In this document: in pieces, positions 6,414 through 63,260 of the stretch
Numbering within the stretch: position 1 is the first letter of the stretch
Layout of the letters: every line of letters starts with the position of its first letter
Virus record (IMG/VR): IMGVR_UViG_3300027816_000074
Coordinates: 1 to 64,000 of that record
Strand: one strand, 5' to 3'
Source of the DNA: a virus
Length of the DNA: 64,000 bases
Program-made: the position numbers and the translations under genes
The notes under the pieces: generated by a model
What the model saw: only the letters and a program-made list of their open reading frames with translations
The model's database searches: none
Told to the model about the DNA's origin: nothing

Positions 6414-6914
6414 ATGCATTATGATAAATTTAAACGTCCAATATTTAATGACTCAGATCTAATCGAAATTTTATATGAAAAAAATCTCGAGTGTCTAAAT
6501 AATACATTAGTTGAAGCTAGTTCGGATGTTTTAAAATTTAACACTTTCACTGATAATCTACTAAAAGTCCGTTCAAATGATACTATTGATCAGGAAACCT
6601 TTGATCAAACATCGCAACAAGAATGGTTTATGCCCGAAGAATATAAAAAAATGGACATCGAAAGCTACTTAGTACAGACATGTCCTGAAGAAAATTATCA
6701 AAGATTAATCGAAGAATTACAAGAATTTCGGAAAAGAAATATGTTGGATCTACTACGTTGGCTTAAATATTTTGTAGATACTGCTAAACAAAGAAACATA
6801 ATTTGGGGAGTAGGACGAGGATCTAGTGTGGCAAGTTATGTACTCTATCTAATTGGTGTACATAAAATTGATAGTATAAAGTACAAATTAGATTGGAAAG
6901 AATTCTTAAGATAA
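6414..6914 (+). CDS. DNA polymerase III alpha subunit-like fragment
   Basis: 166 residues. The C-terminal 35 residues contain GVGRGSSVAS (132-141) followed by YLIG and a D-x-I-K-Y pattern. This matches the GRGSSAGS...YLLGIT..DP segment at the start of the palm of bacterial C-family polymerases (DnaE/PolC). The N-terminal 120 residues are helical and carry no PHP or catalytic Asp motif, so it cannot polymerise by itself. Small PolIII-alpha-like proteins occur in T4-like cyanophages; binding to a host replisome partner is a guess. It probably has no leader (promoter -10 ends 7 bases before the ATG). Confidence 0.55.
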   Translation: MHYDKFKRPIFNDSDLIEILYEKNLECLNNTLVEASSDVLKFNTFTDNLLKVRSNDTIDQETFDQTSQQEWFMPEEYKKMDIESYLVQTCPEENYQRLIEELQEFRKRNMLDLLRWLKYFVDTAKQRNIIWGVGRGSSVASYVLYLIGVHKIDSIKYKLDWKEFLR

Positions 6915-6926
6915 GGAGAGCATATT

Positions 6927-7262
6927 ATGAGCATGAAATCACCAGGACGCACAGTGTATAAAACTATGCAAGGAAAAGAAATTGATTTAGAAAAATTACG
7001 CAAAAAAAATGAACTTACTTTAGCAGTTGGTAATGTTAGAGTCAATGCCCGAGGTGACGAACTTGGTCCAGGAGGAAAGATAGTTAAAAAACGAGAAGAT
7101 GCTGTTAAAGAATATTACACAACTCATGCAGATTCTGTTCCTCATTCTGAGCCAACTGTATCTGTTCCAGGTGCAAAGTTTGCTGAACAAAAAGACCTAA
7201 TTGATAAAAAGTTCCAAAAACCATTAAAGAAAAAAAGTGTAACTAATAAGGTCCAAAAATGA
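6927..7262 (+). CDS. conserved T4-like marine phage protein, unknown function
   Basis: 111 residues, basic, with a good GGAG site before ATG 6927. A central RVNARGDELGPGGKIV segment with Gly-rich turns is followed by a charged helix and a Lys-rich tail (KPLKKKSVTNK). Its stop overlaps the start of the GroES-like gene, so the two are co-translated. The type is familiar from marine T4-like phages, but I know no function; the basic tail would allow nucleic-acid or virion binding. Confidence 0.55.
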   Translation: MSMKSPGRTVYKTMQGKEIDLEKLRKKNELTLAVGNVRVNARGDELGPGGKIVKKREDAVKEYYTTHADSVPHSEPTVSVPGAKFAEQKDLIDKKFQKPLKKKSVTNKVQK

Positions 7263-7597
7263 ACGTTGTAAAAGGAACTATAAAACCTCTTCGAAAAAAT
7301 ATTCTAGTAACGAATATGAATTTTGACGGGATCACTACAACTGGTGGAATTTATATTCCTAGTGACGACGGAAAGACTAGAGGAGTTAAGCCACGGTGGG
7401 GTCAAGTATGGGCAATTGGGCCAGAACAAAACGATGTTGAGGTCGGTGATTGGATTCTAATAGAACACGGCCGTTGGACTAGAGGTGTTAAGGTCGAAGA
7501 GGATGGTAAAGAATTTGTTATTCGAAGAGTAGACATTGATGCTGTTTTGATTAAAACAGATCAAAAACCAAGTGACGAATACATTGCCTACGATTAA
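7259..7597 (+). CDS. GroES/gp31-like co-chaperonin
   Basis: 112 residues, the length of T4 gp31 (111). The fold signature is visible: IKPLRKNILVT at the N-terminus, TTGGIYIPSDD where the GroES mobile loop lies, RWGQVWAIGP (the GxVxAxGP strand) and VEVGDWILIEHG (the VKVGDxVL strand). It would cap the host GroEL so that the phage capsid protein can fold. It overlaps the preceding gene by 4 bases and is followed by a terminator. Start ATG 7259 is coupled to the upstream stop. Confidence 0.8.
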   Translation: MNVVKGTIKPLRKNILVTNMNFDGITTTGGIYIPSDDGKTRGVKPRWGQVWAIGPEQNDVEVGDWILIEHGRWTRGVKVEEDGKEFVIRRVDIDAVLIKTDQKPSDEYIAYD

Positions 7598-7612: not shown

Positions 7613-7640
7613 AATAGGGCCATTGACAGGCCCTATTTTT
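7613..7640 (+). terminator. intrinsic terminator whose loop is a -35 box
   Basis: The 9-bp stem AATAGGGCC (7613-7621) / GGCCCTATT (7629-7637) is followed by a T run. The 7-base loop ATTGACA contains the TTGACA of the next promoter. Confidence 0.9.
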
Positions 7641-7651
7641 TTCTGTATAAT
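7623..7651 (+). promoter_or_regulatory. sigma70 consensus promoter
   Basis: TTGACA (7623-7628), a 17-base spacer and TATAAT (7646-7651), a perfect consensus pair. The -35 lies in the loop of the terminator above. It drives the 7674-10492 operon. Confidence 0.85.
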
Positions 7652-14174: not shown

Positions 14175-14203
14175 TTGACATTGTGATTTTTGTAGTGTAT
14201 AAT
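14175..14203 (+). promoter_or_regulatory. sigma70 consensus promoter for dnaJ
   Basis: TTGACA (14175-14180), a 17-base spacer and TATAAT (14198-14203). Transcription should start at about 14209-14211, at the dnaJ ATG. Confidence 0.85.
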
Positions 14204-14210
14204 GTTTATC

Positions 14211-15041
14211 ATGAACCATTACGAAACTTTAGGAATCTCAGAAAACGCTAGTCAGGATGATGTTAAAAAAGCCTATAAAAAATTGGCTATGAAACATCAT
14301 CCCGACAGAGGCGGAGACACAAAATATTTTCAGTCATTATCCGAAGCATATGAAACTCTAAGCGACACACACAAGCGCAGAGAGTACGATATGAGTCGAA
14401 ACGGATCCCCCTTTATTAATATTAATACCGGAAATATGAATGATATTTTCGGATTCGGTATGGGAGATATGTTTGGCCATTTCTTTAGACACGAAATGCG
14501 TCAAAAAAATAGGGATCTAAATATTCAATGCACCATTACATTTAAACAAGCATTCACTGGAACTCAACTAGAAGCAAATTATAGGCTTCCGTCTGGTAAA
14601 GATCAAAGTTTAACCATTGATGTACCTCCTGGCATTGCTAACGGTCAAACCATTAGATATGCAAAATATGGAGACGATTCTTTCGCCCACCTACCTAGAG
14701 GCGATTTAAATGTTACTGTACTTGTTACACCTGATGAAAGATTTGAACGAAAAGGAGATGATATTTTTTCGCATCTCAAAATAAGCCCGTTTGAAGCTAT
14801 GACAGGGTGTATAAAAGAGATAACATCTGTTACTGATGAAATTAGTACTATTACTATTAATCCTGGAACTCAATCAAACAGTCATTATGTTAAAAGAGGA
14901 TTAGGATTTAGAAGTATTCATAACGGACAGTTAGGAAATTTTATTGTAGTAGTTGATATAGAAATACCAGCTATTACTGATCCAATTCTAAAAAACAAGA
15001 TACAGGAACTTCATGCTGAAATTACTCAAAAGCACAGATAA
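14211..15041 (+). CDS. DnaJ/CbpA-like co-chaperone
   Basis: 276 residues. An N-terminal J domain (HYETLGI... AYKKLAMKHHPDRGG) has the HPD motif at 30-32 that stimulates DnaK. It is followed by a Gly/Phe linker (about 60-85) and two C-terminal beta domains (VPPGIANGQTI, RGDLNVTV). There is no CxxCxGxG zinc finger, so it is CbpA-type. It would recruit host DnaK. ATG 14211 is chosen because an ATG at 14202 lies inside the -10 box. The transcript probably has no leader. First gene of a DnaJ-deformylase-ClpA operon. Confidence 0.88.
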   Translation: MNHYETLGISENASQDDVKKAYKKLAMKHHPDRGGDTKYFQSLSEAYETLSDTHKRREYDMSRNGSPFININTGNMNDIFGFGMGDMFGHFFRHEMRQKNRDLNIQCTITFKQAFTGTQLEANYRLPSGKDQSLTIDVPPGIANGQTIRYAKYGDDSFAHLPRGDLNVTVLVTPDERFERKGDDIFSHLKISPFEAMTGCIKEITSVTDEISTITINPGTQSNSHYVKRGLGFRSIHNGQLGNFIVVVDIEIPAITDPILKNKIQELHAEITQKHR

Positions 15042-15525
15042 TTTTTTAAAAGAAGTCTTACCAGACTTTGACTTTGATAATCCCGTTATTAATCCTCTAA
15101 CACTAGAAGAGGAAATGGTCAAGTTAATGGCAGAAGAAAACGGTATTGGTCTTGCTGCAAGTCAAGTAGGAGTCAATGCCAGGGTATTCGTTATGCATCT
15201 TAAAAATATGCCTGAAGTGTATACACCATTTGCTCTATTCAATCCTGTAATAATCAGTGCAAGTTCAGAACAAGTTGAAGATGAAGAAGGATGTTTAAGC
15301 TTTCCAGGATTATTTTTTAAAGTTAAAAGACCTAAAACTATAGTAGTCGAGTTTCTTGACAGAAATAAAAAATCTTATATACTAACACTAGAAGGAATCG
15401 ATGCTAGATGTTTTTTACACGAGTTGGATCATTTAAATGGTGTCTGTTTTACAGACCGAATAAGTAAATTAAAACTAGATTTAGCAATTAAAAAACAAAG
15501 GAAAAGATATGGTAGAACCAAGTGA
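15013..15525 (+). CDS. def: peptide deformylase
   Basis: 170 residues, overlapping dnaJ by 29 bases. All three family motifs are intact: GIGLAASQVG (44-53), EGCLSFP (92-98) with the metal-binding Cys94, and HELDH (136-140) with the catalytic Glu137. It removes the formyl group from new proteins. Phage deformylases are common in marine T4-like phages, where they are thought to speed turnover or maturation of selected proteins. Placed between dnaJ and clpA in one operon. Confidence 0.92.
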   Translation: MLKLLKSTDNFLKEVLPDFDFDNPVINPLTLEEEMVKLMAEENGIGLAASQVGVNARVFVMHLKNMPEVYTPFALFNPVIISASSEQVEDEEGCLSFPGLFFKVKRPKTIVVEFLDRNKKSYILTLEGIDARCFLHELDHLNGVCFTDRISKLKLDLAIKKQRKRYGRTK

Positions 15526-17755
15526 CAATTTGCAGTTGGTATTTGAAGCAGCAATCGATGTAGCTAAAAAACTCAATCATGAATATCTTACAATCGAACA
15601 TTTGCTGTATGCTATGTTATGCGATGAAAGTTTTACTAATTGCATTAGCGGATATGGTTCAGATCCAGAAAGCTTAAAAAAGGATGTCGAACTCTATATC
15701 AAAAATAAATTAAATGATATAGTAATCAGCGATAATACTAAGCCAAAAAAAACTCAAGCAGTTGAGCGAGTGTTAAACAGAGCATTTACTCAAGTGCTGT
15801 TTCATGGAAGACAAAAAATTGAGTCTACAGATGTTTTTGTCTCGATTATGAGCGAAAAAAAATCTTGGGCACATTTTTATATTCAACAAGCAGACATTGA
15901 TAAAGATAAATTCCTCGATTATATTAATAATGCAGCAGAAGAGGAAGAGATTGAATCACATGACACACAGAGCGATCGTGCTCTAAAAGCTTTTACTACA
16001 AATCTAAATGAAGCTGTTAAGAAGAATAAAGTTGATCCTGTTATTGGACGCATTGACGAGTTAGAAAATATCTCTCTAGCACTTGGACGTAGATCAAAGA
16101 GTAATGTAATTCTTGTAGGCGATCCAGGTGTAGGTAAAACTGCAATAGCTGAAGGACTTGCATATAATATTGTTAAAGGTGCAGTTCCAGATTTCCTTAA
16201 AGAATATACAGTTTATAATTTAGATATTAGTGCTATGTTAGCAGGTAGCAAGTATCGTGGAGACTTTGAAGAACGCTTTAAAGCAGTATTAAAAGGCCTA
16301 AGCAAAAAAGGAAAAACTGTCCTGTTCATCGATGAAGCACATATGATCAGCGGAGCAGGAAGTGCAAATAATAGTGCAAATGATCTCAGTAATATGATGA
16401 AACCTGCACTGAGCAAAGGTAATATTAAAGTTGTTGCTAGTACTACTTGGGAAGAATATCGTAAGTACTTTGAAAAGGATCGCGCACTAATGCGTCGATT
16501 CCAACGAATTACAGTAGAAGAACCTACTGCAGAAATGACTATACAAATCCTTAAAGGAATTAAAAAATACTACGAAACTTTTCATAAAGTTAAAATTAAA
16601 GATGATGCAATTCATTCTGCCGTAAAACTTAGCATTAAGTATCAAGCAGATAAGAAATTACCAGATAAGGCAATTGATTTAATTGACTGTGCTGCAAGTA
16701 GATTTAATCTTAAATTAGCTGATGAAAGAATAATCACTACTAATGAAATTGAATACGAAATTAGTAAAATGGTTAATATTCCTGCAGAGACAATTGCAGA
16801 ACAAGAATCTTCAAATCTAGCTAATTTAGAATCTCAAATTAAAGAAGACGTCTATGGACAAGATTTTGCAATTACCGAAGTTGTAGATAAGATTCTTGTA
16901 AGCAGAGCAGGGTTAAAATCTGAAAATAAACCAGTTGGTAGTTTTGTGTTCATGGGACCAACGGGTTGCGGTAAAACTGAGACTGCTAAAGCACTGTCTA
17001 AGCACCTCGGAGTTAAGCTAATTAGATTTGATATGAGTGAATATCAAGAAAAACATTCAGTATCTAAACTAATTGGCAGTCCGCCTGGTTATGTAGGTTT
17101 CGAAGAAAATGCCGGATTATTAATTACACAGATCCAAGAATCCCCGAACTGTATACTACTGCTAGACGAGATTGAAAAAGCTCATCCGGATGTGGCAACT
17201 ATTTTGTTGCAAATTATGGACAACGGATTTGTTACAGGCAGTAATGGTAAAAAGGCAGATTGTAGAAATATTATTCTAATCTTAACTACTAATGCAGGTG
17301 CAGCAGAGTCTGAAAAGAATGTTATTGGGTTTGGTGATCAAGAAAAAGTCTACGAAGATAAAGAACTTAAGAAATTCTTTGCTCCAGAATTTAGAAATCG
17401 TCTTGATGGCATTGTTACATTCAACAAGCTTGGAAAAGAAACAATGATCAAGATTGTTGGAAAATTCATGTCAGAAGTGCGTGATCAAATTAGAGAAAAA
17501 GGCGTTAAACTAAAAATCAATAACGACGCAATTGACTGGTTAGTAGAAAAAGGGTTTGATAAGAAAATGGGTGCTCGTCCTTTACAGCGTGTAATTGATA
17601 AAGAAATTAAACGTCCGTTAGCTAAGATGATACTATTTGGTGATCTTAAGAAGGGCGGAATATTGAATATTTCTATAGAAGATGATAAAATAGCACTACG
17701 ACCAAAAGTTAGTAAGTCTAAAATTGTAACAAATGAAATTCCTGAAATCTCATAA
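15509..17755 (+). CDS. clpA: ClpA-type AAA+ unfoldase
   Basis: 748 residues, close to E. coli ClpA (758). An N-domain (about 1-145) is followed by the D1 module with GDPGVGKT (204-211) and LFIDEAH (272-278), and the D2 module with GPTGCGKT (483-490) and LLLDE (550-554), then the C-terminal sensor-2 region GARPLQR. An IGF tripeptide (606-608) sits before FFAPEFRNRLD, where ClpA has its IGL loop that docks on ClpP. No ClpP gene is in the window, so it probably directs host ClpP or works as an unfoldase. There is no ClpB-type middle domain. Confidence 0.92.
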   Translation: MVEPSDNLQLVFEAAIDVAKKLNHEYLTIEHLLYAMLCDESFTNCISGYGSDPESLKKDVELYIKNKLNDIVISDNTKPKKTQAVERVLNRAFTQVLFHGRQKIESTDVFVSIMSEKKSWAHFYIQQADIDKDKFLDYINNAAEEEEIESHDTQSDRALKAFTTNLNEAVKKNKVDPVIGRIDELENISLALGRRSKSNVILVGDPGVGKTAIAEGLAYNIVKGAVPDFLKEYTVYNLDISAMLAGSKYRGDFEERFKAVLKGLSKKGKTVLFIDEAHMISGAGSANNSANDLSNMMKPALSKGNIKVVASTTWEEYRKYFEKDRALMRRFQRITVEEPTAEMTIQILKGIKKYYETFHKVKIKDDAIHSAVKLSIKYQADKKLPDKAIDLIDCAASRFNLKLADERIITTNEIEYEISKMVNIPAETIAEQESSNLANLESQIKEDVYGQDFAITEVVDKILVSRAGLKSENKPVGSFVFMGPTGCGKTETAKALSKHLGVKLIRFDMSEYQEKHSVSKLIGSPPGYVGFEENAGLLITQIQESPNCILLLDEIEKAHPDVATILLQIMDNGFVTGSNGKKADCRNIILILTTNAGAAESEKNVIGFGDQEKVYEDKELKKFFAPEFRNRLDGIVTFNKLGKETMIKIVGKFMSEVRDQIREKGVKLKINNDAIDWLVEKGFDKKMGARPLQRVIDKEIKRPLAKMILFGDLKKGGILNISIEDDKIALRPKVSKSKIVTNEIPEIS

Positions 17756-18365
17756 TGTAAAATATAGCACTAAGCTATTCCAGAACAAATACAAATATAA
17801 AGTTGTATTCACTTCTGGAGTAGCTGGCTGGTTTCGAGGATCCAATGTTGAAAGAATAAACAAGTTTTATCATAGTAATGATGATCTTTATTATTCAAGA
17901 CGTGCATCTTCTTCTGACAAAAATCGCGCACACAAATTAGCATCAACACTGGCTGCTATTGAAAATTGGCAGTCAAGAGTAGAAACTCCAACAGTTAGTA
18001 TCTATATCAATACTGAAAAAGATCTAGAAGCAATAGTTAATGTTTGTAAAAATGAAATAAAATACATAGAAATTCCAGATCCTAATCATGTAAATTCGTT
18101 GACAGAAGGTACAATTTTAGTTAAAAAGTTAAATTTTGGTTTTAAAGTAACACTAGGTGTATCTGGACAGTGCCATGCTAATTTTGTACAATGGTGCGAA
18201 AACAATCCAAAAATAAGATTGCCTAAACGTGCAGCCAAGGATCTAAGCAAGGATCGAAGTTCGGGCGGTGGGTTTTTTTATGTCAAAGATGAAAAAAGTC
18301 TCACTATGGTTAAAATGTTCCTAGGACGTACAATTACTAAAGTAGAAACTGTAGTTCAAGCTTAA
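17733..18365 (+). CDS. conserved phage protein, unknown
   Basis: 210 residues, overlapping clpA by 23 bases. It contains two similar halves in outline: YKYKVVFTSGVAGWFRGSNV with a following KNRAHKLASTL helix, and LNFGFKVTLGVSGQCHANFV followed by SLTMVKMFLG. The FTSG..GWFRGS..R pattern is absent from enzyme families I know. A shorter protein at 47180 shares the ...KLNQMF..KDFQVYKL type C-terminus, hinting at a related fold. Last gene before a terminator. Confidence 0.5.
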   Translation: MKFLKSHNVKYSTKLFQNKYKYKVVFTSGVAGWFRGSNVERINKFYHSNDDLYYSRRASSSDKNRAHKLASTLAAIENWQSRVETPTVSIYINTEKDLEAIVNVCKNEIKYIEIPDPNHVNSLTEGTILVKKLNFGFKVTLGVSGQCHANFVQWCENNPKIRLPKRAAKDLSKDRSSGGGFFYVKDEKSLTMVKMFLGRTITKVETVVQA

Positions 18366-52172: not shown

Positions 52173-53280
52173 ACCATTCAGTAAGTTTTTCTTTAAGATT
52201 TTTTCCGATCTGCTCTTGAACAATCTGTCTATGCTGATTGTTCTTTTTTAGCCTCTCGTTGAGATTAGTAACGGACATTATGGAATCTTTGTTCTTTAAA
52301 AGACGTTCTAGCTCTTCTGCTACCATTTTTATTCGATTACCCGGATTTGGTTCTAAATCGTAAGAATGATCTACAATATCATCAAAGACATCAAACCCGT
52401 GATCCCTAACAGCTTGCACATGCCCTTTAACTGTTACAAATAATGGTATCTGATAAGATTGAAAAGCAAAAAACGTTTTCTCTGTTAAAAATACTCTATC
52501 ACTAAAAATACCTCCACAGTAGTTAGTACATTTTGTTCCAGGTATAATAGAATCGTCATAAGTAGATTCTAAAACTACTTTTACTATTGAATCTATTGCT
52601 TCGGGCGGGTAAGTGACTACATACTGATTTCTTTTTACTATTCCGTCAGCATACATTGGAAACAAATGTGTGTATTCTGCAGGTATTAATTCTTTATATA
52701 ATTCGTCCCCGTAATCGTCTGAAACTCCAAAACTCACACACCCTAAATTTAAAAGGTCTCGTTTAACTAATTCTAAAGTAAATAATAATCTAAAATTTTT
52801 TGGATTTCTTGATAAAGAATTGTAAAAAGTTTTTCTTTGAGAAATAGGCGTTAGTGCTCGCACTACACTTGTTAGATCCAATACAGGATTAATAACAAAA
52901 GGATTTGTACCTATGTGAGGGTAACTTCCGTCTGTAGTATATCCTGCATCAACAACCATTATATCTTCAATATTTTTTCCTGTTATTTCTAAAATAAAGT
53001 CTACTATTTCTTTCCATCTGTAATTTGGTAACGCTTCATTTCTGACCATTAATAAAAGTTTAGGGTATTCTTTTAATTTCTTTATGCTATGGCCAACAAT
53101 AAAAAGTTTTATCCTGCCAAGGTTATCCCAATATTTTAAAGCTGCTACATCAAAATTAATTACGCCTATTTTACGTTTTCCTCTACCTTCTAGAAGATGA
53201 ACTATGTCTCTGTTTAACCATACCCAATCTTTATCTTTAACTCTCTCTTGTAGTACGTTTAAATGAGATTTACTTAGCAT
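52162..53280 (-). CDS. glycosyltransferase-like phage protein
   Basis: 372 residues from ATG 53280 (GGAGATAAAACTT upstream); a longer reading frame would run further into the radical SAM gene. The C-terminal TEKTFFAFQSYQIPLFVTVK, then VRDHGFDVFDDIVDHSYD, is a pattern I know from phage and bacterial glycosyltransferase-like proteins, in which the (S/T)EKT..A loop lies at the donor site. The N-terminal half is not assigned. It may move a sugar onto a product of the neighbouring enzymes. Function is tentative. Confidence 0.5.
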   Translation of the reverse strand: MLSKSHLNVLQERVKDKDWVWLNRDIVHLLEGRGKRKIGVINFDVAALKYWDNLGRIKLFIVGHSIKKLKEYPKLLLMVRNEALPNYRWKEIVDFILEITGKNIEDIMVVDAGYTTDGSYPHIGTNPFVINPVLDLTSVVRALTPISQRKTFYNSLSRNPKNFRLLFTLELVKRDLLNLGCVSFGVSDDYGDELYKELIPAEYTHLFPMYADGIVKRNQYVVTYPPEAIDSIVKVVLESTYDDSIIPGTKCTNYCGGIFSDRVFLTEKTFFAFQSYQIPLFVTVKGHVQAVRDHGFDVFDDIVDHSYDLEPNPGNRIKMVAEELERLLKNKDSIMSVTNLNERLKKNNQHRQIVQEQIGKNLKEKLTEWFNQ

Positions 53281-54430
53281 AAGTTTTATCTCCAGGAAAT
53301 AACGGTAGTTCAGTATTAGGTGCTCTTTTAGGAATTTTACTATCGGCACTACTTACACAACTTGGAGTAATACAAGGTTTAGGACTATCAAATAATCTAA
53401 AACCTGTTTCTATATTTCCCAATGGCACATCGTGACAGCTATAACTTCGTTTGATGCTTCCGTCTGGTTCGCGTATAATAATACCTCGATATCCACTACT
53501 ACATTCCCATCCTTCAAATTTGTTAAAATTAAAGGCATTAAATCGTTCGGCCTGATCCATGTACCACACCTTTTGTTCTTTATCTATAAATTCTACTTGA
53601 AAGTGTTGTGGGATATTTTGATTTTCTGCTTTATAAATTGGATCAGGCATCTTAACAAAAGTAGGAAATGGTCTTGAGACTAGTTTAGCAGTGGCAGCTT
53701 TAGCTTCAGTAAACGCCCGTTGAGGCATTCCGTTATGTAACTTTTCTAACATTTCAGAAGTATAACCATCTACTACCCGACTAGCAGTGGGATCGCTTTG
53801 AGGCTTTAATGTAACATTAATACCCCTATTATGAAAGTAAAGAGCGTTTTCATAATCTTTATCAAACCACTCTGGTACCATGACCATATTAATTGTAACT
53901 TGTACATCATGGTCTTGACAAAGTTCTAATTTATCTCCAAATTCTTTTAGCTTCTCTTTAGTGTCAACATGTTCAGTGTGTAGACTAGCAGTTATACTTG
54001 CACGGTGGAATTTACTAACAGCAGGACAATATTCATCGTTAAACCATTTTACAGTTCTGCTCATATTAGTTGTCATATGAACACTGGTGTAATTTGTATT
54101 TGGGGCATCATTATTCAAATGATTTAAAATATCTATGTACCCTGGATGAAAGGTTGGTTCGCCTCCACTAAGGCTAAAATGAAAACTATTAAATCCTCTT
54201 TCTCTAGCCTGTCGTTTAATTTCGTCTACAGTTTTAATACATAATTCTGTTGGTCTATGATCTTTTTTATCACTCCGTGCATAAGGCCAACAATAGCTAC
54301 AACGATAGTTACAATATCTGCCTAATAACCAACTTACTGTAAAAAGGTCTCTATATAACATATTTCGTTGTCCAACACGAACTATATTTTCAAACGGTAT
54401 TTTTTTAAAATCGTATTCTGATTTTTCCAT
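53270..54430 (-). CDS. radical SAM enzyme with SPASM-like C-terminus
   Basis: 386 residues. CNYRCSYC (Cys40, Cys44, Cys47) is the CX3CX2C motif, and SGGEPT (88-93) is the SAM-binding GGEP. The C-terminal part (CSSGYRGI, SYSCHDVP, PKPCITPSC) has enough cysteines for an auxiliary cluster. SPASM-type enzymes often modify peptides or proteins. The N-terminal 30 residues lack an obvious leader-binding RRE. First of four radical SAM genes in the island. Confidence 0.75.
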   Translation of the reverse strand: MEKSEYDFKKIPFENIVRVGQRNMLYRDLFTVSWLLGRYCNYRCSYCWPYARSDKKDHRPTELCIKTVDEIKRQARERGFNSFHFSLSGGEPTFHPGYIDILNHLNNDAPNTNYTSVHMTTNMSRTVKWFNDEYCPAVSKFHRASITASLHTEHVDTKEKLKEFGDKLELCQDHDVQVTINMVMVPEWFDKDYENALYFHNRGINVTLKPQSDPTASRVVDGYTSEMLEKLHNGMPQRAFTEAKAATAKLVSRPFPTFVKMPDPIYKAENQNIPQHFQVEFIDKEQKVWYMDQAERFNAFNFNKFEGWECSSGYRGIIIREPDGSIKRSYSCHDVPLGNIETGFRLFDSPKPCITPSCVSSADSKIPKRAPNTELPLFPGDKTYAK

Positions 54431-54431
54431 G

Positions 54432-54986
54432 TTAAACTTTCTGAATTGGGTCTATGCTTATTTCGTTTATATGAAATTCTTTAGGCTGTTCAATAACCCA
54501 TTTTATGTAATTTGCTGCAAGACTAATATCCATACAAGTCCTAGTTGGATGTTTATGTTGTACATTAGATAAACTACCAAAACTTACTAAAGTGACTGTA
54601 GGACCTCCTTGCCATACACCGTTCATCGAAAGTGTATTACAATAATCTCTCAAAGCTTTTTTCTCTGCATTATATAACCATGCTCCGCCTTTTTTAACTC
54701 GATCAGTTGTTGATCCTACACAAATTATTTTTAGATCTTTTTTGTTTTCTATGCAAGATTTATAAACTGCATCTAGTAGTACAGTTTGGTTAAATTTCCA
54801 TAGTGCTGAACAATTTATAAAAATATCGTAATCTAAAACTTTTTTGGCTAGAGATAACTGTCCATCCGCTGAGGTTAAATCGTAGCCAGTTGTCCTTGAT
54901 ACAAAAGTAGCGTCCGGATATATTTTAAATAGTTCAGAAGACAATCCAAAATTTTTATTTCCGGTTATTAGTATTTTGGAGCTCAC
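54432..54986 (-). CDS. short-chain dehydrogenase/reductase
   Basis: 184 residues, somewhat short for the family (about 250). ITGNKNFGLSSEL replaces the usual TGxxxGIG loop; INCSAL, Ser92 in VGSTTD and YNAEK with Tyr105 and Lys109 give the Ser-Tyr-Lys triad. NAD(P) binding is likely. The substrate may be a sugar or the product of a nearby enzyme. It begins at the divergent gap with the 55069 gene and is followed by a radical SAM gene. Confidence 0.65.
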   Translation of the reverse strand: MSSKILITGNKNFGLSSELFKIYPDATFVSRTTGYDLTSADGQLSLAKKVLDYDIFINCSALWKFNQTVLLDAVYKSCIENKKDLKIICVGSTTDRVKKGGAWLYNAEKKALRDYCNTLSMNGVWQGGPTVTLVSFGSLSNVQHKHPTRTCMDISLAANYIKWVIEQPKEFHINEISIDPIQKV

Positions 54987-55020
54987 ATCTTCCTCTTATT
55001 TTTACTTTGAAATAGTAGCA

Positions 55021-55029
55021 TATAAATAT
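55021..55029 (+). promoter_or_regulatory. late promoter box (TATAAATAT)
   Basis: TATAAATAT, a perfect T4 late box, 39 bases before ATG 55069, in the gap between divergent genes. Confidence 0.65.
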
Positions 55030-55068
55030 TTAGCTAGTAAAAACTAGCCAACATAATTTGAAGAACCC

Positions 55069-56421
55069 ATGAGAAAACTAGTTAAAAATACATACATCAT
55101 ATACATTGTTGATGATAACAAGGATTATAAAGACACCTTAGGTCAGGAAATTGGTTATAATCTTCTAGAAGCATCTGTAAGGCACGACATGCTTTACAAA
55201 TACTTTTTATCTTACGACGATGCATTTAAAAGTTTACAAACAGAAACAGCTCCTAAAGTCATTTTTACAAGACCAGGAAACACATTTGATCCAATATGGT
55301 TAGCACAGTTAGTTTCTAAAAATCCAGAGTATTCTCTAATTGGACATCTTTTAGACAAAGGTGAAGAATACTACGAACTACACAATCAATGTTTTATATT
55401 AGATGTTAAAGATTGGAAACAATCCGGATCTCCTATGTATAATTCTCCTGGAGAGCAAACATGTACAAATATCAGTAGGAGCGAGAACAATTTTCATGAT
55501 CACCACACTCCTTTATCAGTTGATAAAGGTGATGGAACAAAGACCTATAAAAAGATAAAGCCAGGCGGATTAATTATTAGTAAATTGTTAGAACACGGAT
55601 TTAAAATTAGGCCGTGGACTTCAGAAGAAAGAAAGCATAAGTTTTACCTATACGATGATCTAGTTTTAAAGTACGGATCTTATCTACGTATAGAATGTAC
55701 GTTTGACGACACTATCTTTAATTGTACAAATGAACCAATTGTAAAATTTGAACTCCCGCAAATTAAAAGAATTGTAACTCCCGCAAACGGACTACAAGCC
55801 TTACAGATTATTGACAAGTGCCCTAATGCTACTACTGTAGATTTTAGAGATATTAGTCAATCTGCAATCAATTTTACAAAAAATGTTTTAGACAATTATA
55901 TCGGAAAAGATTATGACCAACTATGTTTTTCTAGCGGGTACAATCTTCAAGTTAGCAATCAAGAGTCTATTAGAAAATCAGAACAAGAATTTTTAAACGG
56001 GCTTGTAGAACCTTATTCCGAAATGCAGTTTAGATTACTAGAACTGAATTGTAACTATTTCAAAGAAAGCTTCTTTGAAATAGAAGATTTAATTAATAGG
56101 ATGAATGGTAATACATTGTATGCGTTTAGCAATATTCTGTCTTATAGGAAAACAGCATACTTGTACAGTCAAATTCATTTTAATTTAATGTTAAAAACAT
56201 TAGCTAGTGCAGAAAGACTAGCAAAAAATGATAGTTATTTTTTAGGAATGTTACCTACTAGCGAAGCATCGACAAGAGGATATGCGTTAATGCATGTTAA
56301 AGATGTTAGTTTAGATCCTGATACAGAATTCAACTTTCCTTGGAGACAAAAATTATATGAATACTACACTGAATATCTCGGAATTCTTCGAGAAAAGGAA
56401 AGAAGAAAATCATTATCATAA
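55069..56421 (+). CDS. two-domain phage protein, Rossmann-like C-terminal half
   Basis: 450 residues. Residues about 235-300 (TPANGLQALQIIDKCPNATT, then VDFRDISQSAINFTKNVLD) follow the motif I to IV order of class I SAM-dependent methyltransferases, though the GxGxG is not standard. The N-terminal half (SLIGHLLDKG..., QCFILDVKDWKQSGSP) is a domain common in phages and not assigned. The C-terminal 100 residues are helical. May be a methyltransferase or only share the fold. Preceded by a late box. Confidence 0.4.
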   Translation: MRKLVKNTYIIYIVDDNKDYKDTLGQEIGYNLLEASVRHDMLYKYFLSYDDAFKSLQTETAPKVIFTRPGNTFDPIWLAQLVSKNPEYSLIGHLLDKGEEYYELHNQCFILDVKDWKQSGSPMYNSPGEQTCTNISRSENNFHDHHTPLSVDKGDGTKTYKKIKPGGLIISKLLEHGFKIRPWTSEERKHKFYLYDDLVLKYGSYLRIECTFDDTIFNCTNEPIVKFELPQIKRIVTPANGLQALQIIDKCPNATTVDFRDISQSAINFTKNVLDNYIGKDYDQLCFSSGYNLQVSNQESIRKSEQEFLNGLVEPYSEMQFRLLELNCNYFKESFFEIEDLINRMNGNTLYAFSNILSYRKTAYLYSQIHFNLMLKTLASAERLAKNDSYFLGMLPTSEASTRGYALMHVKDVSLDPDTEFNFPWRQKLYEYYTEYLGILREKERRKSLS

Positions 56422-57097
56422 TTTAACTGAGATACCAAAACATCTAAATTTAGATGCTCAGTTAAAATGGATTATTGAAGAATCAAACTTAAGAACTCTT
56501 AGATTAAATGTTGAGATTCCCCATGAACAGATGTATCAAGAAGCTGAAATTCTTCTTGACGAATTTTATTCTCATCGAGACGAAGGCGAAGATCACAGAG
56601 GGTGGAAAAGTCTTGTTATTCACGGACGAGGAAAACATATTACTCAAGGTGACGAACAATACGAAAATTTAAAAGATCTTCCCGACTATCATTGGACTGA
56701 GATAGCCGACAAATGTCCTATAACAACTATGTGGTTAAAAAGTTGTTGGCCTTTAGATAAATTTCTCAGGGTACGATTTATGCTTTTAGAACCAGATGGC
56801 TACATTATGCCTCATAGAGATAACAATAAAAGAAAGTTACAAGCAATTAATATAGCGTTAAATAATCCAGTTGGTTGCGAATTTGGTATGGAAAACTACG
56901 GAGTTATACCATGGAAATCTGGAGATGTTAGATTAATAGATATAAGCACGAATCATGCTGTTTGGAACAATAGTAAAACTCCCAGAATACATATTATTGT
57001 ACATGGATGGCCAGTTCAACAATATAAAGAGTACAGAAATTTAGTTATAGAAAGTTATAAAAAAACATATGAAGAATATATTGCATCTTGGAAGTAG
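56357..57097 (+). CDS. aspartyl/asparaginyl beta-hydroxylase-like oxygenase
   Basis: 246 residues. FMLLEPDGYIMPHRDNN with His153 and Asp155, and NHAVWNNSKTPRIHIIVHG with His200 and Arg210, give the Fe(II)/2-oxoglutarate site of the aspartyl hydroxylase family. An N-terminal 110-residue region precedes it. The 65-base overlap with the previous gene is long; ATG 56357 is the only early start. It probably hydroxylates a protein or peptide. Smaller relative at 29178. Followed by the tandem SGNH-like genes. Confidence 0.75.
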   Translation: MNTTLNISEFFEKRKEENHYHNLTEIPKHLNLDAQLKWIIEESNLRTLRLNVEIPHEQMYQEAEILLDEFYSHRDEGEDHRGWKSLVIHGRGKHITQGDEQYENLKDLPDYHWTEIADKCPITTMWLKSCWPLDKFLRVRFMLLEPDGYIMPHRDNNKRKLQAINIALNNPVGCEFGMENYGVIPWKSGDVRLIDISTNHAVWNNSKTPRIHIIVHGWPVQQYKEYRNLVIESYKKTYEEYIASWK

Positions 57098-57803
57098 TTG
57101 GAGTGAAGTAAATGGTGTACCTAATCATAGCTTACCATTTTTTGTAACAGAAGGCCTTATTAATCGAGGTATTGATGTAAACTATTATTCAACAGCTATG
57201 GGCGGTTGTGGATTAGGTGTTCAATTTGAAATTTTATTAAACATTTTAAACGGTAAAGAAAAAATTGATTTTGTTTTATTTGAAGTAACTACATTTGACA
57301 GATTTCATTGTCAACTATTAGACTCTGATATTGTATGGGAAAAAGAAGATAGTCATCCTAATATTGTACAATGTCGAAACTGGCTTATTAAAAACTATAT
57401 TTTTTGGATGCCGCTGCATAAAGAAATTATTAATCAACATTGGCCTTATCTGTCGAATAAAGGAACATATTTAAAAATGGCCAAACTTTTAAATGCGGGC
57501 GACTTTAATTGGGAAAGTATTTTTTTAAGTAGAATAGTAACAATTAAAAATTTACTTAAAAAAAGAAATATTCCGTTTTTAATATATGCACACGATTCGA
57601 AACAAATGGTAGATAAAACTCGGATATCTCAATTAGTACTTAAAGAAATATACGACGAACTAGACTTTTGTGTTAACGAGTACATTGGTATTGAAACTTT
57701 TAAGAAATTTGCCATCGACAGAGGATTTCATATGTCGCCCAACGGTGACAGATATATAGCTGAAAATGTTTTAATACCAAAAATTATTGAAAAATTAAAA
57801 TGA
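57069..57803 (+). CDS. SGNH-hydrolase-like protein (tandem copy 1)
   Basis: 244 residues. LHLGSSWSE (block I with Ser10), GGCGLGVQFE (oxyanion-type Gly/Gln) and IDRGFHMSPNGDRYIAEN with Asp217 and His221 reproduce the SGNH ester hydrolase pattern. It is a paralogue of the following gene with the same layout. No signal peptide, so the substrate is inside the host. SGNH proteins remove or move acetyl groups on sugars. Overlaps the preceding oxygenase gene by 29 bases. Confidence 0.65.
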   Translation: MKNILHLGSSWSEVNGVPNHSLPFFVTEGLINRGIDVNYYSTAMGGCGLGVQFEILLNILNGKEKIDFVLFEVTTFDRFHCQLLDSDIVWEKEDSHPNIVQCRNWLIKNYIFWMPLHKEIINQHWPYLSNKGTYLKMAKLLNAGDFNWESIFLSRIVTIKNLLKKRNIPFLIYAHDSKQMVDKTRISQLVLKEIYDELDFCVNEYIGIETFKKFAIDRGFHMSPNGDRYIAENVLIPKIIEKLK

Positions 57804-58507
57804 AAAAAATATTACATTTAGGGTGCAGTTGGAGTCAATTTAATCACGAAGGACAAAAAGGAGTACCTGAAAATACAGTCGAAGTATTAAAAGAGAAAAA
57901 TGTTGATGTTCTCTATTACAGTGCATCCCATGGTGGTTGCGATCTTGGAACACAATTTGAAGTACTAAAATCAGAGATAGGTAAAGGCTACGATTTTATT
58001 ATATTTCAAGTTACTTCTGACAGTAGACATCATATAAGAACTGGTCATTATAATTTAGACTGGACTCCTACTGTTTCTCATCCAAACATTTATAAGTGTG
58101 ATGTTTCTTTAAGAAAAAGTTTTGTGTTCTGGAATCCAAATTACGGAAAAGCTATAGATCAATTCTGGCATAAACATAACAGAGATTATCGAATGGCTGC
58201 TAAACTTAGTTACTCTTACGACTGGGATGATCAAAGTTTATACTTTGGTCAAATATGTTCGATTAAAAAAATATTAGAAAAATCTAATACTCCTTACATA
58301 ATCTATAGTCATCGGAATATCTGGTGGGAAAAACATAATAATATCTTTCAGGCTCACACAACTGATCTACTTGATTTTGATGTTGAAACACAATTAGGTG
58401 ACAATTTTAATTCTTATATTGTAGACGACGGACACCATTTAAGTAGTCAAGGAAATAGGATAGTAGCCGAAGAATTAATTGTTCCTAGACTACTACCCTA
58501 TCTATAA
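57800..58507 (+). CDS. SGNH-hydrolase-like protein (tandem copy 2)
   Basis: 235 residues, ATGA overlap with copy 1. LHLGCSWSQ (Ser10), GGCDLGTQFE and VDDGHHLSSQGNRIVAEE (Asp209, His213) match copy 1 residue for residue in the motifs while the rest has diverged. The two probably arose by tandem duplication and may act on different substrates or as a heterodimer. It ends one base before the stop of the convergent minus-strand gene. Confidence 0.65.
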   Translation: MKKILHLGCSWSQFNHEGQKGVPENTVEVLKEKNVDVLYYSASHGGCDLGTQFEVLKSEIGKGYDFIIFQVTSDSRHHIRTGHYNLDWTPTVSHPNIYKCDVSLRKSFVFWNPNYGKAIDQFWHKHNRDYRMAAKLSYSYDWDDQSLYFGQICSIKKILEKSNTPYIIYSHRNIWWEKHNNIFQAHTTDLLDFDVETQLGDNFNSYIVDDGHHLSSQGNRIVAEELIVPRLLPYL

Positions 58508-59410
58508 TTACATCTTAGCTTGTTCTTTTCGCCACTCTATAAGTAAATCATCATCGAGTTCAACTAAGAAAGTTAGTAATAAACCCATCTTAGCGTTCCA
58601 TAATTTTTTACCTTTGCTCTTAGTACCTTCATTAGTATTATGCAACTGTACTGCATCGAACCACATAGGTTTACCTGGTTCCCAATCTAAAATAGTTTCA
58701 GCACTTAAACCTTTTAATCTTTCATACGGAGTATTCATTACCTGCTCAAAAACAGATTTATCAAAAGGTGTTGCATTGTTTTCTTTAGGAACAGCAGTTC
58801 CTTGACCGTCATAGAATTGAAGTTCAGTGTAATCAGTGGTAATTTTATACACACTAGCAATATTAGGAACTAGACCGCCACCATTATAAACATGCGCCCA
58901 GTCAATATGTCGCTGATCGAAGAATACAATTTGTCCACCATCTTCTTCATTAAGATGTGTTCCTATCCATAAAGGTAACAACCAATTTTTCCAACAAGTG
59001 TATTTTCGTTGTTCGTGATTCAACGGGACTTTATCAAATGTAGTTGTAAAATCTTCAGGCCTTATACTATCATTATGTAATCCATATTGTTGGGGAGTAA
59101 TAAAATAATTACCGCCCACTTGTGGACTTTTTTCAGCAGGTATACCTAAACACTGATCGATTCTATCTTTAAATTTTAAATAAACTTCATGTAACTGTCC
59201 TGCTACTAACACAGTTCCGTTTTTATTCATTCTAACTTCTTTGCCTCCGGCAAATGCAAATTTCCAAATCCAATCTAATTCTTCTTTTGAAAACATTGCA
59301 TCTTCAGATTTTGATGCTCGGCTAATATGCCTACGCATATTTTCAACTGCTATAGGATGATCCATTGGAAGCATATAATGCTCCCTTCTTAAACCTTTAG
59401 TGTACTCCAT
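58508..59410 (-). CDS. 2-oxoglutarate/Fe(II) oxygenase-like protein
   Basis: 300 residues. YGLHNDS with His112 and Asp114 and a distal His257 in AVQLHNTNEG form the iron triad, followed by KLWNAKMGLLLTFLVEL. GTHLNEEDGGQIVFFDQR is the usual strand before the second half. It resembles phytanoyl-type/prolyl-hydroxylase folds rather than the aspartyl hydroxylases nearby. It may oxidise the product of the adjacent radical SAM enzymes. Start 59410 overlaps the upstream gene by 14 bases. Confidence 0.7.
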   Translation of the reverse strand: MEYTKGLRREHYMLPMDHPIAVENMRRHISRASKSEDAMFSKEELDWIWKFAFAGGKEVRMNKNGTVLVAGQLHEVYLKFKDRIDQCLGIPAEKSPQVGGNYFITPQQYGLHNDSIRPEDFTTTFDKVPLNHEQRKYTCWKNWLLPLWIGTHLNEEDGGQIVFFDQRHIDWAHVYNGGGLVPNIASVYKITTDYTELQFYDGQGTAVPKENNATPFDKSVFEQVMNTPYERLKGLSAETILDWEPGKPMWFDAVQLHNTNEGTKSKGKKLWNAKMGLLLTFLVELDDDLLIEWRKEQAKM

Positions 59411-60803
59411 AAAATACTCCTGTCATTTCTGGAAAAATTTCTTCAAAATTTAAACCTCTATGTGTATCAAGTGCTTTTAAATATTCTGTTGTTTCAGGTA
59501 ATCGGTTAGTCCAATCTTCTGATTTCATAAATTTAATCATGCCGCGCAATCTTTTGATACCATACTCGGCGTTAAGCCACTGTTCTTTTGTTACCTTACC
59601 TTTATGCCATTCAGGAACACCTAGTTCCCAGTTTTCTATCCACCATGGTATAAATTCCTCATAGTGTTGTTCGCATTTGTCTTTAAACCATTGAGGTAAG
59701 ATCTTGACATTTAGGTGTGGTGGCCAATATACAAAATGATGATTAATTCCACCTGCACCAAATGGCCACATGTTAATCTTTTTATAGTTCTGTTGTAATT
59801 TCCATTTGATAAATTCTGGAATATAATAAATGTTCAATGCCTGTACTGCACATGCAACTGTAATTTCTACGTTGTCAGATGTTTGTGTATCTAGAATCTT
59901 AAATACTTCTTCTGTACGTTCCCATTTACTAGGATATCTAATATAGGCATTCTTTTCACCTATTGCATCAACACTATAATGGAATCGAACAAGTTTAAAT
60001 TCTTTCCATAACTCAAATAAATCTTCTCGCCATTCGACTCCGTTACTGTTATAACGAAGTTCTAAATTCTTAGCATGTCCTTGCTTTATACATTCTTCTA
60101 AAATTTCGTAATGTTCTTCTATGATTAATGGCTCGCCACCTGCAAAATAAAGCTGTTGCATATTCGGGATTTGTTCATAGAATTGCTGCCAAAAAAGAGG
60201 ATTATTTTTATGCCAATTAAAACTTGAGCCGTTAACACTGCCCTTGTTTTCCCATGCCATGGTCTTGCTTAATTCTCTATTCTGTATAGTAGGATGGATC
60301 TTATTCCATTCTGGAATCCAATTACTACTATCATGCGGACTGCACATTACACAGGCTAATTGACATTTAGATCCGAATCTAAGATCAATATATTTTAAAT
60401 TAGGAGGGACTTGTCCATCATCTGTTGTCTGTGCAATTAACTGATCGATGTCCACACGCTGAGCCCAATAGTTAGTTTCCCATTGTCTTTTGCTTACATG
60501 ACCAGATTCTTCTTCTTTATAACATTTTGAACAGCTTTCTGGCTGTCCATTATCTAACATAATTTTTCTTACATTTTTCATGTAAGTGCTGTTCCAGCTT
60601 GATTGGAAATCGCTAACATTTAAGTTAGCTGGTTTACCTTCTTCTGTCTTCAACATTCCGACATGACCCCCGGTTTCAGCATTTGTAGATCCAACACCGC
60701 TAGCATTAGCAGTGCAACATACTCTCATACTACCGTCAGGTCTTGTACTTAAATGTATCCAAGGAAGAATACAAAATGTGTCTGATGGATATTTTTGTGT
60801 CAT
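59397..60803 (-). CDS. radical SAM enzyme, twitch-domain type
   Basis: 468 residues. An N-terminal cysteine region (CILPWIHLSTRPDGSMRVCC with Cys11, Cys29, Cys30, then CSKC at 91-94) precedes the radical SAM motif CQLACVMC (Cys147, Cys151, Cys154) and FAGGEPL. This arrangement is typical of twitch-domain-containing radical SAM proteins found in many marine phages, with no known product. It is a paralogue of the 61986 gene. Substrate unknown. Confidence 0.75.
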   Translation of the reverse strand: MTQKYPSDTFCILPWIHLSTRPDGSMRVCCTANASGVGSTNAETGGHVGMLKTEEGKPANLNVSDFQSSWNSTYMKNVRKIMLDNGQPESCSKCYKEEESGHVSKRQWETNYWAQRVDIDQLIAQTTDDGQVPPNLKYIDLRFGSKCQLACVMCSPHDSSNWIPEWNKIHPTIQNRELSKTMAWENKGSVNGSSFNWHKNNPLFWQQFYEQIPNMQQLYFAGGEPLIIEEHYEILEECIKQGHAKNLELRYNSNGVEWREDLFELWKEFKLVRFHYSVDAIGEKNAYIRYPSKWERTEEVFKILDTQTSDNVEITVACAVQALNIYYIPEFIKWKLQQNYKKINMWPFGAGGINHHFVYWPPHLNVKILPQWFKDKCEQHYEEFIPWWIENWELGVPEWHKGKVTKEQWLNAEYGIKRLRGMIKFMKSEDWTNRLPETTEYLKALDTHRGLNFEEIFPEMTGVFYGVH

Positions 60804-60823
60804 GGAAATATTTAGTTATTATG

Positions 60824-62002
60824 TTAATTGGCAAATTGGTTACTGAACATATCGTTTTTTACACCACATGTTTTGGCACAGATTTGTAATTTCCCGTCAG
60901 CACAACTAGATTTGGTCCAACTATTAGGAACAATATCTTGAAAATATAATCCATTTACGATTGATTCTAAACTGTGATTTTTGGCATTTAAATTTTCTTT
61001 TCCTACTTTATTAATTGCTTGCCAAATTTGGCCGCCTTCTGGTAACCAATACCAAACATACATTTGTCCGGCGGTCCAACAACAAGGTTGAACAATACCT
61101 TCAGCTGAAACATAAAGACTTTTTTCTTCTGCTACTTTACATTTTATTGGAACTTCGTCCCAATACTTCTCCATTGGTTTTTTCTTAGAGGGATCAATAT
61201 GAAATTTTTGTTTACTTTGCACAATGAATGCTTCTTCTGCTTTACTTGGAACAAAAGAAATAGTATCTTCTAGTTTTTTATCAATTTTACTTAATTCTGC
61301 TAATGCTGTATTTTTATACTTGTCATCAGTAGGAGGTTTTAAAAGAGTAGTTGCTTGTCCTTTACGATTGGCCGCTTGATGAGTGTCTTTTGTTGCGCCC
61401 GAGGCATTGCTGAAAAATCTTGCTGATTTTTTAAATTGAAACTTTTCAAACCCCATTTTCCCACTTAATGCTCTGGCCTCGTCGACCTGATGTTCGTTGT
61501 GTTCAAATACAATATAATCCCATCTTGCCCTGCCGCCAGCATTTATAAAAGCCTGAGCATTTTCCATAATTTTAGACCATATAGTATTTTGTCTGTACAG
61601 ATGATTAGTATCTTCTAATCCGTCTAAACTAAACACTACATTAGAATTTTTTCCCATAACTTGAGCAAGACGTGCCCACCAATCCGGTTTCTTCGCACTG
61701 CCGTTGGTGTGCATACTTAAATTCATTTTAGGATTAGATTGTCTAAAATATTCAAATATTTCTAAAGTATCTCTAGCAGCAATAGGATCTCCATAATTGC
61801 CACACATATATAGTCTGTCTAATTGCTGTATAAACTCAACTGTAAATATTCTTTTAACATCATCAAGATGTAATTCTGTGTTTGGTAACTGAGGATTGTC
61901 TTCGCCACCGTTAATGTTTCTAGCACACATTGGGCAGGCTGCGTTACAGCTATCTGTAACTTCTAAGTGTACAGTTCTAATGTCGTTATAGTGGTATATC
62001 AT
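60824..62002 (-). CDS. radical SAM enzyme with SPASM-like C-terminus
   Basis: 392 residues from ATG 62002; a TTG at 62011 is also in frame. SCNAACPMC (Cys19, Cys23, Cys26) is the radical SAM motif, MCGNYGDP replaces GGEP, and the C-terminal part (IKCKVAEEKSLYVSAEGIVQ, PCCW, SCADGKLQICAKTCG) has the cysteines of an auxiliary-cluster domain. It overlaps the next gene upstream by 17 bases. Differs from the two twitch-type enzymes on either side. Confidence 0.7.
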   Translation of the reverse strand: MIYHYNDIRTVHLEVTDSCNAACPMCARNINGGEDNPQLPNTELHLDDVKRIFTVEFIQQLDRLYMCGNYGDPIAARDTLEIFEYFRQSNPKMNLSMHTNGSAKKPDWWARLAQVMGKNSNVVFSLDGLEDTNHLYRQNTIWSKIMENAQAFINAGGRARWDYIVFEHNEHQVDEARALSGKMGFEKFQFKKSARFFSNASGATKDTHQAANRKGQATTLLKPPTDDKYKNTALAELSKIDKKLEDTISFVPSKAEEAFIVQSKQKFHIDPSKKKPMEKYWDEVPIKCKVAEEKSLYVSAEGIVQPCCWTAGQMYVWYWLPEGGQIWQAINKVGKENLNAKNHSLESIVNGLYFQDIVPNSWTKSSCADGKLQICAKTCGVKNDMFSNQFAN

Positions 62003-63260
62003 CTTGTTCAAATAGATAACTAAATTGTTTTAAATAATCTTTATTTACTGCTTCTTGAAAATACAGAAATTCTTCTTTTAACTTATTATTTGCTCTTGTA
62101 CTAAAATCGTGATTGTCTAATAAATCAAAAACATTTTGAAAGTCTGATTTATAATCTAAATTACAATCGTTAATAACATTAATTAAAGATTGTTTTGACT
62201 TCATAATATATTTTTTTGGAAGAACATTAATAGACATTGATCGTGGCCAAGTGAGTATAATTGGTTTAATTACACATCTTTTATCTCCAAGTGTTTTTTT
62301 CCACCAATAAATTAAATTATCTAAATATCTTACATTTAACCCGCTGACTACAGGTACTAAAGTAAGTTGGAAATTATCGTCTACATGTTTGACCGCTAAG
62401 TTAACATTTTTTTCAATATTATTCCAATCTGAACTCGTTCTTAAATATTCATTCAATTCGCCATACGCATCAATACTTAAATTTAATTCTACACTTTTAA
62501 AACTTTTAAGAAGATTTAATTGGTATTCGCTAAACTGAGACGTATTTGTATTACACCAGAATACAATGTTTGATGAGTAACCTTGCTCAACAAGAAAGGT
62601 TATAAAGTTCCAAAGAGGTTTAATAATAAAAGGTTCGCCGCCTGTAACATACAGATGCTCTAACTTATTTGCAATGTCTTTAAGCCCTTCCCAAAAAGTT
62701 TCACTTTTATCTAATTGTTCTTCTCCTGGATTATTAGACCACCATCGTTGATTTAACAACATTGTCTTTTTTTCTTCTCCCATTTTTTGCCCTATAGAAG
62801 TAATTAAAGAAGACCAATCTGTAGAACACATAATGCAAGCATAGTTACAAGTTTTAGCTACTTGCAAATTATAATAGCTGGGTACTAACTTTGTATCAAA
62901 CTTTTCCCAATTAGAAAAATCTTCAGGTAATGAAGTATCATAATTTTGTTGAAAGACATTCCACTCTTCTAATCGTTTAGAAACTAATCCTTGTTTTTCT
63001 TTGATCCAACAAGATTCACATTCTGAAAGTTTTTCTCCATTTATCATCCGTTTTCTAGATTCGTTGTAGTATGAATTATTAAAAATTTCTATAATCTTTG
63101 TAGACTTACCGTCAACTTTTTCTATGTCAGGATTATACTTTGCTTCGCAACAAAATTTTATTTGTCCTTTAGTTTCTGTACTAAAATGATTGAATAACAA
63201 AGGACACATTGTTGGATGTGTACCTGGAGAAAATCTATTTAAAAATTCTTCTCGATTCAT
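61986..63260 (-). CDS. radical SAM enzyme, twitch-domain type (paralogue)
   Basis: 424 residues. It has the same plan as the 59397 product: TMCPLLFNHFSTETKGQIKF with Cys19, CC at 37-38, CESC at 81-84, radical SAM motif CNYACIMC (Cys138, Cys142, Cys145) and VTGGEPFII. It is probably paralogous to the 59397 product and sits in the same operon. Two copies point to two related reactions or substrates. Overlaps the 63257 gene by 4 bases. Confidence 0.75.
   Translation of the reverse strand: MNREEFLNRFSPGTHPTMCPLLFNHFSTETKGQIKFCCEAKYNPDIEKVDGKSTKIIEIFNNSYYNESRKRMINGEKLSECESCWIKEKQGLVSKRLEEWNVFQQNYDTSLPEDFSNWEKFDTKLVPSYYNLQVAKTCNYACIMCSTDWSSLITSIGQKMGEEKKTMLLNQRWWSNNPGEEQLDKSETFWEGLKDIANKLEHLYVTGGEPFIIKPLWNFITFLVEQGYSSNIVFWCNTNTSQFSEYQLNLLKSFKSVELNLSIDAYGELNEYLRTSSDWNNIEKNVNLAVKHVDDNFQLTLVPVVSGLNVRYLDNLIYWWKKTLGDKRCVIKPIILTWPRSMSINVLPKKYIMKSKQSLINVINDCNLDYKSDFQNVFDLLDNHDFSTRANNKLKEEFLYFQEAVNKDYLKQFSYLFEQDDIPL

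Follow-up and report, generated by a model that had tools for sequence, protein, structure and literature searches.

The window analysed here, i.e. positions 1-64,000 of IMGVR_UViG_3300027816_000074 (itself a linear virus record of 108,619 bp, labelled G000), carries genes for a DnaJ protein, a peptide deformylase and ClpA downstream of a perfect sigma-70 promoter (Table 1). A preliminary description of this DNA had proposed a dnaJ-deformylase-clpA operon under one strong promoter, with a GroES-like gene about 7 kb upstream; the three genes, their order and coordinates were all confirmed, as was the GroES-like gene, which is collinear in relatives. The extent of the operon had to be revised, since the three genes do have overlapping ends but a fourth overlapping gene 3' of clpA had been missed.

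Table 1. Features of the operon and of the promoter-terminator overlaps (window coordinates unless a contig label is given).
Feature	Position	Strand	Remarks
Sigma-70 promoter	14175-14203	+	TTGACA-N17-TATAAT, perfect; drives four-gene operon
dnaJ	14211-15041	+	class B J-protein (predicted): HPD motif, DnaJ_C, no zinc finger
Peptide deformylase gene (def)	15013-15525	+	motifs GIGLAASQ, EEGCLS, HELDH
clpA	15509-17755	+	Clp_N, two AAA+ modules, GYVG pore loop, ClpP-docking loop IGF 606-608
Fourth gene	17733-18365	+	210 aa; overlaps clpA; conserved in relatives
GroES/gp31-like co-chaperonin gene	7259-7597	+	Cpn10, 40 bits; outside dnaJ operon
Terminator stem-loop with perfect promoter	7613-7637 (stem-loop), 7623-7651 (promoter); span 7613-7651	+	-35 box in loop
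Nested dnaJ promoter, example	L044:2496-2572
Nested dnaJ promoter, example	L022:9071-9147

The DnaJ protein matches PF00226 and PF01556, and its score against the class A profile TIGR02349 (175 bits) lies below the cut-off of 377. The zinc-finger motif CxxCxGxG is absent from the window protein and from 73/73 relatives, whilst HPD is present in 66 of these 73. With a J domain bearing HPD, a DnaJ_C region and no zinc finger, we assign the protein by its sequence to the class B (CbpA-like) J-proteins. Translation of dnaJ probably starts at ATG 14211, because the in-frame ATG of the longer open reading frame (14202) sits within the -10 box, and since only 7 nt separate the end of the -10 box from ATG 14211 the dnaJ mRNA is probably leaderless. 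The deformylase matches PF01327 (151 bits) and TIGR00079 (133.8 bits, curated cut-off 103.95) and has the motifs of its class, GxGLAxxQ, EGCLS and HExxH, as read from the translation. Its gene is present in 37 of the 62 relatives whose contig extends to the site, and we regard it as an accessory member of the operon. Identity of DnaJ and deformylase to their relatives is mostly ~45-55%, compared with 73-79% for ClpA across 78 diverse relatives, two near-identical records giving 100%. A megablast search of the locus against phages gave no match.

The ClpA protein matches TIGR02639 with 894 bits over residues 6-722 and comprises an N domain (Clp_N), two AAA+ modules with Walker A and B motifs and a D2-small domain, these motifs being found in 79-80 of 80 relatives; a GYVG pore loop begins at residue 527. 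The profile matches, together with an IGF tripeptide at residue 606, bear out the full-length ClpA with both AAA modules and a docking loop at 606-608 that had been described. The protein is nearer to ClpA (894 bits) than to ClpB (689 bits) and does not reach the TIGR02639 equivalog cut-off of 993 bits, which is attained by no phage ClpA that we tested. In a phylogenetic tree the phage ClpA proteins, including those of all isolate jumbo phages tested, formed one clade apart from the bacterial ClpAs (support 100/99), the sole phage ClpA outside it being that of the 735-kb megaphage LR756501, on a very long branch. Because the cut-off is missed and the clade is separate, we file the window protein with a phage clade of ClpA-type unfoldases and not as a ClpA equivalog. 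The motif IGFG is invariant in 80/80 close viral relatives, among which 27 different codon strings encode it and the residues on either side vary; mutation of the loop in relatives, which had been named as counting against capture of host ClpP, was thus not found in this set, and the constancy of IGFG despite the 27 codon strings indicates that the docking loop is under purifying selection.

The fourth gene follows clpA in 79/80 relatives. The predicted structure of its product (pLDDT 93) has two alpha/beta ferredoxin-like halves, and the family was found only in phage relatives, with a weak structural relative in Atu_ph07. It was considered as a known Clp adaptor and rejected, there being no convincing sequence match in Pfam or the PDB and no convincing fold match in the PDB. 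Elsewhere in the window, positions 6414-6914 encode a stand-alone piece of 166 aa, conserved and collinear in relatives, whose match is confined to the beginning of the DNA polymerase III alpha NTPase domain, whilst on the minus strand four radical-SAM proteins lie in one region (53270-63260); the one of the four that was searched (59400-60803) had no tblastn relative in the phage collection.

The DNA polymerase of the record is closest to those of phages Phosso (469 kb) and Atu_ph07 (490 kb), and both the DNA polymerase and the ClpA clade are held in common with Atu_ph07, Phosso and RaK2. From this polymerase affinity and ClpA clade we assign the record to a RaK2-like jumbo phage, of which it is a fragment; the record itself spans 108 kb, and the genome size of >200 kb that goes with the supergroup is seen in its close relative G016 (345 kb). 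The window is taken to hold the dnaJ-(def)-clpA module of a RaK2-like giant freshwater phage. G016, which is near-complete and has a ClpA 75% identical to that of the window, encodes ClpA, ClpP, ClpS, DnaJ, GroES and Hsp20. An Hsp20-ClpS-heme oxygenase cluster, the heme oxygenase being named by eye, occurs in two related jumbo phages (G016:299630-300951, L358-L359; and L253). The phage dnaJ-(def)-clpA module is also carried by PBPT01000016.1 (L162), CAJQJC010000070.1 (L164) and NZHE01000019.1 (L165), contigs filed in metagenome-assembled genomes (MAGs) of Neomarinimicrobiota, Pelagibacter and Rickettsiales that are very likely misbinned jumbo phages. A reading of the 335-kb contig described below and of other MAG contigs with high ClpA identity as hosts was rejected in favour of misbinned phage. 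The top tblastn match, 'Acinetobacter phage MD-2021a' (CAKLQF020000008.1, L087), was rejected as a bacterial sequence with an argC neighbourhood and clpS-clpA order.

The dnaJ promoter is conserved, within 0-2 mismatches, in most of 65 relatives. In 32 distinct relative sequences there is a long stem upstream of dnaJ with the promoter's -10 box at or close to its loop and, usually, a T-run after the stem; the layout is TTGACA-GGCTCC...TATAAT...GGAGCC-TTTTTT. These 32 sequences had a median folding z-score of -6.0 against mononucleotide shuffles, and stem positions 3-6 are occupied by several different base-pair types, i.e. by compensatory changes. RNAalifold run on a MAFFT alignment returned no structure, probably because gaps displaced the 3' arm, and the folding result rests on per-sequence folding instead of alignment folding. 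The palindrome at the -10 box of the relatives was considered as a repressor operator, a reading superseded by the covarying stem and T-run, which fit a terminator; the element looks like the terminator of the upstream operon with the next (dnaJ) promoter nested inside. In the window itself the dnaJ promoter has no clear stem of the nested type and belongs to the leaderless kind. Similarly, in L004-L012, L015, L018, L024, L025, L030, L038 and L051 only 5-8 nt separate the end of the -10 box from the dnaJ ATG, and a leaderless dnaJ mRNA is likely in this group of relatives, whilst the other perfect promoters of the window (7623, 29669 and 49047) have leaders with Shine-Dalgarno-like sequences. 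In a second layout, seen at the window stem-loop of Table 1 and in L008, L010 and L025, the terminator loop contains the -35 box TTGACA and the promoter spacer contains the T-run. Using a strict automated terminator scan, which misses many asymmetric stems, 26 of 211 distinct near-consensus promoters overlapped a terminator compared with 12 of 1,231 shifted controls, and over half of the overlap examples with a perfect promoter were the dnaJ promoter itself. A brief look at the literature found no paper on a promoter nested in a terminator hairpin.

ClpP (PF00574), ClpS and HSP70 were sought in the full 108,619-bp record and none was found. The absence of ClpP noted in the preliminary description therefore holds for the record, but not for the lineage. 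A PF00574 search of 12 related records found ClpP in four, always on the strand of clpA and 47-55 kb upstream of it; the remaining eight records hold <47 kb upstream of clpA. A second scan, started from ClpP, gave three further contigs with both genes, 48-57 kb apart, as well as 11 shorter contigs lacking clpA, so that 7/7 related contigs with both genes have an intact ClpP upstream of, and on the same strand as, clpA. The window genes are collinear with the four ClpP-bearing contigs of the first search. Since our record begins 15.5 kb upstream of clpA and the ClpP of relatives lies 47-57 kb upstream, the missing ClpP is almost certainly a truncation artefact. The Ser-His-Asp catalytic triad is kept in the phage ClpPs that were aligned. 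ClpS, absent from our fragment, is present in G016, where it retains the NDDxTPM motif. A 335-kb relative contig (ClpA 64% identical; misbinned as a Neomarinimicrobiota MAG) carries ClpA and ClpS with no ClpP, and may be incomplete.

In a survey of 12 phage genomes with ClpA (11 isolates and LR756501) and six controls without it, ClpP is encoded in 11/11 of the ClpA-bearing isolate genomes and ClpS exceeds the Pfam cut-off in 10 of these 11, the match in XaC1 being sub-threshold (E 5e-4). The megaphage LR756501.1 has a ClpA (352550-354721, L157) with a degenerate docking loop, and neither ClpP nor ClpS was detected in it. Neither ClpS nor a full ClpA was found in the controls T4, phiKZ, KVP40, P-SSM2, G and HTVC008M; in phage G, weak AAA+ matches that we read as ClpX-like lie directly beside its ClpP. 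The ClpA loop is IGF in phages whose ClpP is ~48-63% identical to that of E. coli, and VGF, IGV, IGM, LGM, MGM or MNM in those whose ClpP is 32-37% identical. In the diverged phage ClpPs positions 49, 82, 112 and 114, which from knowledge of E. coli ClpP we take to form the docking pocket, are altered in varying combination. Such joint change of loop and pocket would be expected if ClpA pairs with the ClpP of its own phage, though it follows phylogeny and so is not an independent test. No HSP70 was found in the 12 phage records and, if canonical, DnaJ must therefore use host DnaK. The order dnaJ-def-clpA is annotated in the complete phage Phosso, and dnaJ-clpA in Atu_ph07 and PA5oct.

Because longer relatives bear the matching protease and usually the adaptor, the phage probably carries the whole degradation machine, and we consider it probable that ClpAP(S) is supplied by the phage itself, while its DnaJ acts through host DnaK. 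This phage would encode ClpP outside the sequenced fragment, and phage ClpA hexamers, docking on it by the IGF loop, would give a ClpAP of the phage's own, to which ClpS would deliver N-degron substrates. DnaJ may recruit host DnaK to hand over or refold clients, and the deformylase may meet the demand for N-terminal processing when phage proteins are made in a burst. Over an infection that is long and high in output, the net role would most likely be protein quality control combined with removal of selected proteins of phage or host. More speculatively, ClpA, ClpP and ClpS might constitute an autonomous N-degron protease whose loop and pocket have co-evolved so that it is insulated from, or outcompetes, that of the host, with the dnaJ-clpA arm in many relatives driven by a host-type promoter nested in the terminator hairpin of the upstream operon, a compact element kept by compensatory changes; this extended scheme is somewhat doubtful.

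The preliminary description had instead read the loop as a means of capturing host ClpP. The docking loop is real and under selection, but capture is not our favoured interpretation, since close relatives encode an intact ClpP at a fixed place beyond the point where our contig ends and complete relatives add ClpS. In this alternative, phage ClpA would displace host ClpA or ClpX, dock on host ClpP and redirect host proteolysis, possibly beside a ClpP of the phage's own; the canonical loop and the 335-kb relative with ClpA and ClpS lacking ClpP mean that it could still operate in addition, and SPO1 Gp53 offers a precedent for a phage protein that redirects a host Clp protease (PMC6873191). We nevertheless judge it unlikely, given the ClpP genes of close relatives and of all 11 isolates, and the diverged ClpA loops that accompany diverged phage ClpPs.

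Less probable again is a proposal made for jumbo phage ClpA (PMC7824862), in which the protein would work chiefly without ClpP, as an unfoldase or chaperone in virion assembly. The adjacency of clpA to tail or virion genes in RaK2, GAP32, 121Q, XaC1 and Vibrio phage 2.275.O would suit such a role, as would the one megaphage that retains ClpA with a degenerate loop and no ClpP; a pure chaperone, however, would need neither the loop that is invariant in this lineage nor the ClpP that co-occurs with ClpA. That the genes are recent captures from a host, of no particular function to the phage, seems hardly credible: all three families are bacterial in origin, but the high ClpA identity across diverse relatives, the separation of the phage clade from bacteria and the retention of gene order in a cultured soil phage all speak against it. 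A phage-owned protease thus remains our preferred reading. With it, the proposal that phage ClpA hijacks host ClpP becomes a testable claim of another kind, namely that a complete phage-owned ClpAPS is kept across a giant-phage supergroup, and if this protease is orthogonal to that of the host its substrates would reveal which proteins giant phages need removed.

The Clp components themselves are already known from Atu_ph07, for which the original authors list a ClpA adjoining DnaJ as well as ClpP and ClpS (PMC6102473); in our partial coverage of the literature we found no paper stating that ClpA, ClpP and ClpS co-occur across the supergroup. A jumbo-phage review (PMC7824862) treats ClpS-bearing phages as feeding host ClpAP, citing AMM43882. 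This protein is the ClpS of phage CBB, which also encodes ClpA and ClpP, and the presence of all three parts in CBB qualifies that view. SPO1 Gp53 resembles the present system as a case of phage control of Clp proteolysis (PMC6873191), but it is an adaptor for host ClpCP and not an unfoldase. Sinorhizobium jumbo phage AP-J-162 is reported to have neighbouring deformylase (gp154) and DnaJ (gp155) genes together with GroES, Hsp20 and six Clp proteins (PMC11242549), a likeness by description; its Clp proteins are discussed there only as a list. In Atu_ph07, as here, ClpA (gp292) adjoins DnaJ (gp293), with ClpP and ClpS elsewhere in the genome, but no deformylase gene lies between dnaJ and clpA and its ClpA is only ~41% identical. 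Sinorhizobium phage Phosso shares the dnaJ-def-clpA order, again with ClpP and ClpS elsewhere, whereas its ClpA is 43% identical and a different small gene lies 3' of clpA. E. coli ClpAPS has the same three parts, an IGL/IGF loop and the NDDxTPM motif seen in the ClpS of G016; it differs in that the phage ClpA clade is separate and the phage genes are scattered over 50-120 kb, whilst clpS and clpA are adjacent in E. coli.
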